Virus record (IMG/VR): IMGVR_UViG_3300035224_000325
Coordinates: 1-23,177 of that record
Length of the DNA: 23,177 nt
Strand: one strand, 5' to 3'
From: a virus
Under the pieces are notes generated by a model. That model was not told where the DNA came from. It did no database searches and worked only from the letters and a program-made list of their open reading frames with translations. Both the position numbers and the translations under genes were made by a program. Positions 1 to 7,580 of the stretch are shown piece after piece (positions within the stretch are counted from its first letter, which is position 1; the number at the start of each line of letters is the position of its first letter).

Positions 1-21
1 AACCTTTACCTTTAATACGAC

Positions 22-1425: not shown

Positions 1426-1495
1426 AGGATGTTGTGGTGCTGGATGTCCAGACTGTCCATTCAGACCACCTCCTAGACCGTCTAGCACTCCTTGA
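1373..1495 (+). CDS. Possible Cys-rich 40-aa ORF overlapping the previous gene
   Basis: An open frame in +1 relative to the 73-aa gene runs from ATG 1373 to TGA 1493-1495 and encodes 40 residues with the dense motif CCGAGCPDCPF. This resembles the CCGxGCxxCP[YF] signature of small DUF5522-type Cys-rich proteins. There is no Shine-Dalgarno at 1373. The Cys-rich part (about 1427-1464) lies beyond the stop of the 73-aa gene, so it could also be reached by a +1 frameshift at TTC TAG A, or be a decayed gene. Its stop overlaps the -35 box of the promoter at 1492. The motif is seen directly; expression is inference. Confidence 0.3.
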   Translation: MKKNVSKLSVSTSLNLSRGCCGAGCPDCPFRPPPRPSSTP

Positions 1496-1510
1496 CAGGG
1501 GTGCTTTTTT
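1484..1510 (+). terminator. Terminator whose loop is the -35 box of the next promoter
   Basis: AGCACTCC (1484-1491), loop TTGACA (1492-1497), GGGGTGCT (1498-1505), then a T-run to 1510. The stem is eight pairs with one T-G wobble. The six-base loop is exactly the consensus -35 hexamer of the sigma70 promoter, giving a compact terminator-promoter cassette. It would stop read-through from upstream and restart transcription for glutaredoxin. Confidence 0.85.
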
Positions 1511-1520
1511 ATTATATAAT
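1492..1520 (+). promoter_or_regulatory. Consensus sigma70 (early) promoter
   Basis: TTGACA 1492-1497, 17-nt spacer, TATAAT 1515-1520: both hexamers are perfect. The start point is expected near 1527, 18 nt before the glutaredoxin ATG at 1545. Because it needs no phage factor, the unit should be transcribed early by host RNA polymerase. Confidence 0.9.
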
Positions 1521-3993: not shown

Positions 3994-4018
3994 GGAGGGT
4001 TGCGACCCTCCTTTTTTT
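3994..4018 (+). terminator. Rho-independent terminator
   Basis: GGAGGGT (3994-4000), loop TGCG, ACCCTCC (4005-4011), seven T: a strong seven-pair stem ending the 56-aa gene. Confidence 0.95.
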
Positions 4019-4042
4019 GTGCTATGATGTGTTGATACTACC

Positions 4043-7211: not shown

Positions 7212-7555
7212 GCTTCTTTAAATCTGACATCATCAGAGGAGATATCCAAGAGATGATGGAACTCCAGCAGTATTGTTTTAGATCTGCTATGAACTTTGCT
7301 CTTCTTAACGAAGAACGTAAACTAGAATACTTTGATACTCTATCAACTCTTATTGAAAAGCAAAAGATTTTTCATGCTCGTATCAAGTTAAGTGACGATC
7401 CTGAAGCTGTCTCTGTCCTTGAGACAATGAAGCAAGGGGTTGTTATGCTGGGTGCTACACCTGGTACACCTATCGAGCAGATGTTTGATGAGTTGTTGGA
7501 GAAAGTTCAAATTCTCAAGACTCGTTTTGAAAATGGTGAGGGACCATCGGGTTGA
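7208..7555 (+). CDS. DUF1825 family protein
   Basis: 115 residues. The opening MSFFKSDIIRGDIQEMMELQ, the central TLIEKQKIFHARIKLSDDPEA and the following helix closely follow the cyanobacterial DUF1825 pattern (MSFF-S-I, LLEKQ-I-R-LSDDPEA), a small helical protein of unknown function found in cyanobacteria and their phages. It is therefore probably of host origin. It starts at the ATGA overlap with gp33. Its TGA stop lies inside the -35 box of the gp32 promoter. The Gly/Pro tail (ENGEGPSG) is encoded by sequence shared with the promoter region. Confidence 0.85.
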   Translation: MSFFKSDIIRGDIQEMMELQQYCFRSAMNFALLNEERKLEYFDTLSTLIEKQKIFHARIKLSDDPEAVSVLETMKQGVVMLGATPGTPIEQMFDELLEKVQILKTRFENGEGPSG

Positions 7556-7580
7556 CACCCACTCCACCACCTGCTATAAT
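7549..7580 (+). promoter_or_regulatory. Consensus sigma70 promoter for gp32
   Basis: TTGACA 7552-7557, 17-nt spacer, TATAAT 7575-7580, both perfect. The -35 sits in a small hairpin GGGT-TGAC-ACCC (7549-7560). The predicted start is near 7587, giving a leader of about 69 nt. The stop codon of the DUF1825 gene lies within the -35. Confidence 0.9.

Follow-up and report, generated by a model that had tools for sequence, protein, structure and literature searches.

A putative terminator–promoter element with the −35 hexamer in its hairpin loop recurs in T4-like cyanophages

The 1484–1520 element and its surroundings

The window, that is, the whole 23,177-base stretch analysed (virus record IMGVR_UViG_3300035224_000325), belongs to a marine T4-like cyanophage, as its genes for glutaredoxin, PhoH, a single-strand binding protein and the baseplate hub indicate; the nearest records are Synechococcus phages ACG-2014h, i, e and b. 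On the plus strand, a gene of unassigned function, T4-GC_277 (phrog_1811), occupies positions 1204–1425 and a glutaredoxin gene (Pfam PF00462, E = 4.8e-8) positions 1545–1787. Between them lies a 37-base element (1484–1520, plus strand) which, read base for base, has the order AGCACTCC - TTGACA - GGGGTGCT - TTTTT - ATTA - TATAAT. The left arm AGCACTCC (1484–1491) and the right arm GGGGTGCT (1498–1505) form a terminator stem, TTGACA (1492–1497) is both the −35 hexamer and the hairpin loop, the terminator T-run (1505–1510) falls within the promoter spacer and TATAAT (1515–1520) is the −10 hexamer. In the promoter scan of the window both hexamers are perfect consensus and the spacer is exactly 17 nt. 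Thus, the T-run inside a 17-nt spacer, followed by TATAAT, which an earlier note on this DNA had described, is present base for base. The same note equated the loop exactly with the −35 hexamer. Its coordinates are right and the stem does enclose TTGACA, but in the best structure T1492 pairs with A1497, so that the unpaired loop is a TGAC tetraloop closed by the T and A of the hexamer. The stem comprises 8 bp, or 9 bp with T1492-A1497, and includes one G.U pair; the RNA fold of 1476–1514 has an energy of −13.3 kcal/mol (z = −3.58). As in intrinsic terminators, a stable GC-rich RNA hairpin is followed directly by a U-run, and as in sigma-70 promoters, TTGACA and TATAAT are separated by a spacer near 17 nt and are conserved among relatives. 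No T-run follows the stem on the minus strand, which rules out a bidirectional terminator, and no Rfam family matched at gathering score anywhere in the window, which rules out a known structured RNA.

A small Cys-rich frame, RGCCGAGCPDCPFRPPPRPSSTP (1424–1495, also given from 1421; plus strand), is recognised from the sequence and from relatives. It lacks an ATG here; the codon at that place is ATG in some relatives (MSRGCC...) and CTT or ATT in others, so that a different start codon or a frameshift may be involved. The frame (SRGCCGAGCPDCPFRPPPRPSSTP*) is in +1 relative to T4-GC_277, whose end it overlaps, its stop codon TGA sits in the hairpin loop, and its match to DUF5522 is weak (E = 0.08, far below the Pfam cut-off). 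The 5′ portion of the cassette, GACCACCTCCTAGACCGTC (1464–1482, plus strand), is conserved and is retained where upstream genes differ, and the conserved GACCACCTCCTARACCGWC block, which persists even with a different upstream gene, extends the cassette in the 5′ direction. The conserved block at 1464–1482, CCACCTCC, looks like an additional left arm for GGGGTGG and includes CACCTCCT, which is similar to an anti-Shine-Dalgarno sequence; in three sequences (L468, L477 and L485) the stem is formed by this block. On the downstream side, the annotated start of the glutaredoxin of S-MbCM7/ACG-2014h (L123, 1938–2438; KF156338, 181533–182033) lies about 200 nt further upstream and the ORF crosses the terminator–promoter. 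The annotation probably sets this start too far upstream, because both the Pfam match and the window's own gene begin after the element.

Other sites in the window display related arrangements. A second, degenerate copy is located at 3994–4028 on the plus strand (GGAGGG(TTGCGA)CCCTCC T7 GTGC TATGAT), with a spacer of 17 and a TG-extended −10, and ACG-2014i and ACG-2014h have comparable hairpins with a (tgcg) loop, accompanied by either TATGAT or TATAAT. Another composite, TTTACA-17-TATAGT combined with the terminator hairpin GAGGGT TAACT ACCCTC T7, lies at 463–517; its hairpin spans the predicted transcript start (near 498), and the left arm would therefore be missing from the new RNA. The second perfect consensus promoter of the window, TTGACA-17-TATAAT at 7552–7580, is close to the gene for the single-strand binding protein and has no hairpin; a similar site is found in ACG-2014i and e.

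Recurrence in cyanophages and exchange of flanking genes

At the corresponding site, ACG-2014h, i, b and e contain the element with changed stems, the arms being ACCACTCC/GGGGTGGT in ACG-2014i and AGCACTCC/GGAGTGCT in ACG-2014e, compared with AGCACTCC/GGGGTGCT in the window. Across 23 distinct copies of the cassette TTGAC is invariant and 96% of cells pair, with one stem pair being C-G in 14 copies and G-C in nine, a compensatory change; the sixth base of the hexamer varies (A, G, T or C). Four sequences (L251, L470, L472 and L474) keep the hairpin and the TTGAC loop without a recognisable −10. The gene downstream of the cassette is glutaredoxin in ACG-2014h, purC-like in ACG-2014i and e, and purL-like in ACG-2014b, and blastn similarity between the window and ACG-2014b stops exactly at 1520, where the −10 ends. 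In IMG/VR, 50 stretches with the window's cassette were retrieved by a pattern scan. In the T4-GC_277 set, which was gathered by tblastn, only copies followed by the Cys-rich tail were counted as informative, since the T4-GC_277 gene is itself mobile. The 68 cassette copies with both flanks represent 17 upstream and 32 downstream contexts, and a single upstream context meets 14 downstream ones. Judging from these comparisons, the window copy appears to lie at a gene-exchange boundary, and we infer that recombination was the cause of the exchange of flanking genes.

A further element, AGGGTAC(ttgacg)GTACCCT-T-run-TAAACT, is found in ACG-2014h downstream of hsp20 and upstream of gp43. Here, 80 loci were collected by their Hsp20 protein, with no selection for the pattern, and provided 55 distinct usable sequences. 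A terminator with the −35 in its loop and a −10 is present in 50 of the 55; three of the five sequences scored as having no terminator (L556, L583 and L597) visibly possess a hairpin with a TTGACG loop but were left uncounted. When 31 distinct sequences were aligned in one register, three pairs had changed on both sides (22 cells) and 99.3% of cells paired; none of 500 shuffles reached 22 cells, and slid structures gave 0–3. In the same alignment TTGAC does not vary and its spacing stays fixed. The −10 is mostly TAAACT, which departs from consensus at two positions; it keeps the T, A and T of TAnnnT and is preceded by a near-constant TG, forming an extended −10 (TGnTAnnnT). A fixed loop together with a covarying stem implies that neither signal is maintained alone, since a terminator would not fix its loop and a promoter would not covary in its stem.

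The association between loop and −10 extends to whole genomes. Ten cyanophage genomes and the window together contain 145 terminator-like hairpins, loci common to related phages being counted more than once. A −10 at 16–18 nt accompanies all terminators with a TTGAC loop (15/15), 6/11 with a degenerate −35 in the loop and 31/119 with unrelated loops; for TTGAC against unrelated loops Fisher's test gives 2e-8, although this significance is inflated because sequences of related phages are not independent. In PSSM2 and PSSM4, the loops TTCAC, TTAC or ACAC occur with a perfect TATAAT. There are three to four loop-form elements per ACG genome, and at least 20 contigs carry two elements spaced 0.3 to about 7 kb apart, whereas at the threshold used S-PM2 and Syn9 have no loop-form element.

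Viral contigs of IMG/VR were also scanned for the layout hexamer-T5-TATAAT, and a GC stem enclosing the hexamer was scored. Among the matches listed, such a stem surrounds TTGACA in 25 of 120 cases and TTGACG in 44 of 117, as opposed to one of 114 for the permuted hexamer TTCAGA. T4-like cyanophage proteins were found on the pieces carrying 66 of the 70 hairpin sites and 86 of the 168 other sites among the TTGACA and TTGACG viral matches listed. The same scan for TTGACA in bacterial and archaeal genomes returned a single hairpin-enclosed case among the 120 matches listed, ruling out a general bacterial feature. A chance origin is ruled out by the permuted hexamer, by the expectation for the window (0.05 occurrences of consensus TTGACA-15..19-TATAAT) and by simulation: the perfect composite was never found in 1500 first-order Markov windows, and once when up to two promoter mismatches were allowed. 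Indeed, recurrence of the same design in T4-like cyanophages with changing hairpin sequences points to selection and not to coincidence.

Judged by sequence, the element is a recurrent, lineage-wide, though not universal, design of T4-like cyanophages (Kyanoviridae). The search for the same hairpin-with-TTGACA-loop pattern that the earlier note had suggested was successful (15/15 with a −10; 25/120 in IMG/VR among the matches listed), but the coincidence of loop and −35, which it had considered unusually tight, is no peculiarity of this locus, as the 50 of 55 sequences at the hsp20 site illustrate.

Proposed mechanism and competing explanations

We consider it highly probable, on comparative sequence evidence, that the 37 bp constitute a composite of an intrinsic terminator and a sigma-70 promoter, placed where one transcription unit gives way to the next. 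Polymerase arriving from T4-GC_277 would synthesize the RNA hairpin and release its RNA in the U-run, with 3′ ends predicted at about 1508–1513, and host sigma-70 polymerase would bind the same duplex DNA at TTGACA/TATAAT and start near 1527. Since this predicted start lies past the hairpin, the new transcript, which presumably encodes glutaredoxin, could not be terminated by it and would escape. With the −35 as its loop, the hairpin accommodates both signals within 37 bp, since no other part of a terminator is free in sequence, and the element as a whole may act as a movable module boundary. Promoter activity, termination efficiency and early timing are predictions of the same kind. The dual terminator–promoter role put forward in the earlier note is well supported by the comparative data (the hsp20 site, stem covariation and the TTGAC-loop terminators), and its outline was right, although the scope was understated and the uniqueness overstated.

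Several other readings of the same features have to be weighed. If the element were an intrinsic terminator alone, its promoter-like hexamers would be coincidental or decayed; a few relatives have indeed lost the −10 while keeping the hairpin, and unrelated loops, TTCG for example, are frequent in cyanophage terminators. However, TTGAC, the 17-nt spacing and the −10 remain constant while the stem varies, every TTGAC-loop terminator in the genome set has a −10, and the permuted hexamer is hardly ever enclosed among the matches listed, which makes this explanation improbable. The opposite reduction, to a promoter whose inverted repeat is a protein operator over the −35 and serves a repressor instead of termination, can appeal to the position of the repeat, since operators in the form of an inverted repeat are often found over the −35. 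An operator would, however, keep its sequence, whereas the stems differ between loci and display paired substitutions; moreover, the T-run always follows the right arm, on the transcribed side only, which fits RNA. Because the stems covary and differ between loci, we rule out an operator palindrome and assign this reading very little probability. It is just as doubtful that UUGAC in the loop acts as an RNA motif recognised by a phage antiterminator or RNase, with the −10 serving a separate purpose: no part of the hairpin is more constant than the loop, as might be expected of such a motif, but the 17-nt spacing to the −10 and the variable sixth base are as expected of a −35 hexamer, and the TTCAC, TTAC and ACAC loops of PSSM2 and PSSM4, with their TATAAT, fit a degenerate −35 better.

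The remaining explanation builds on the composite instead of replacing it. The overlap itself could be functional if polymerase terminated in the spacer stayed on the DNA and reinitiated at the underlying promoter, upstream transcription thereby feeding the downstream unit. After intrinsic termination, the polymerase of E. coli is retained on the DNA and starts anew at promoters close by (Kang et al. 2020, PMC6978380), and in the present element the terminated active site would, from the sequence, be some 15 nt upstream of where the new transcript is predicted to start. Yet the precedent comes from E. coli and not from cyanobacteria, compact packing suffices to account for the layout, and a polymerase pausing at this point might just as well obstruct the promoter. 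We therefore regard functional overlap as conceivable but rather unlikely, and somewhat less likely still its fuller form, in which termination-coupled reinitiation would cut the mRNA between successive phage gene cassettes and hand polymerase on from each to its neighbour. For the composite terminator–promoter, a conflict between hairpin and promoter at the DNA level is unlikely, since the hairpin is an RNA structure and polymerase recognises the promoter as double-stranded DNA. Any coupling would thus come through occlusion or recycling of polymerase, and such coupling of the two functions is possible.

Relation to known cassettes and significance

Promoter-early stem-loops (PeSLs) were reportedly described in the T4-type phages RB49/phi1 by Arbiol et al. 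in 2010 and in PST and nt-1/KVP40 by Comeau et al. in 2014; excised mini-circles are one of their features. The window element likewise unites an early-type promoter and a terminator stem-loop within one short cassette, and several copies occur per genome. Both join a strong sigma-70 promoter to a terminator stem-loop and are repeated in a T4-like genome, apparently at sites of gene exchange. PeSLs are composite promoter–terminator motifs of T4-type phages held to mediate gene shuffling, and in the S-PM2 region studied they were judged scarce (PMC4503421), in line with which the S-PM2 genome has no loop form at the threshold used here. Nevertheless, the geometry differs. In RB49, 12 of the 13 T-run terminators near promoters have their centre 26–43 nt upstream of the −35, with further hairpins between −35 and −10 or around the −10, and in KVP40 (AY283928) TTGAC forms the inner portion of the left arm in eight copies of GGGTTGAC-loop-GTCARCCC. 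The KVP40 copies (e.g. at 85858 and 121376), with the pattern AAAGGGTTGAC-N4-GTCARCCCTTT, represent a third layout of the same idea. By contrast, in the window element the −35 itself forms the loop and the promoter spacer holds the T-run. T-run hairpins of cyanophages have their main peak on the −35 itself and a second peak at the transcript start, and the geometry scan of T4 found no such hairpin–promoter arrangement at threshold. The measured geometry rules out identity with the RB49-type layout, and the KVP40 arrangement is not matched either. Thus, the element would work like a PeSL but is set apart from the RB49 and KVP40 elements by the geometry measured in their genomes; the PeSL match proposed earlier probably holds for function and for the role at exchange boundaries, and not for layout.

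Two more distant comparisons are instructive. With intrinsic (Rho-independent) terminators the element shares the GC-rich stem, short loop, T-run and stable fold, but their loop is free or a tetraloop such as TTCG, whereas here it holds a fixed promoter hexamer. Lambdoid ‘morons’, ORFs flanked by their own promoter and terminator (PMC1524935), are likewise single genes bracketed by transcription signals; however, the two signals of a moron belong to one inserted gene, while in the window one terminator–promoter is shared between neighbouring genes.

Promoter–terminator fusion of the PeSL type was already known, and the layout with the −35 as loop differs from the RB49 and KVP40 forms measured here. 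The present results extend such cassettes, with a different geometry, to a large marine phage family, and suggest that several layouts solve one problem, namely, ending the upstream RNA, starting a new one and sparing it. The element may also offer a natural, compact substrate for studying polymerase recycling after termination. As a punctuation mark of cyanophages, one short motif would predict both ends and starts of transcription units in Kyanoviridae, for which promoter and terminator maps have so far come mostly from separate predictions, and would mark the exchange boundaries at which auxiliary genes, such as glutaredoxin and the pur genes, are swapped.
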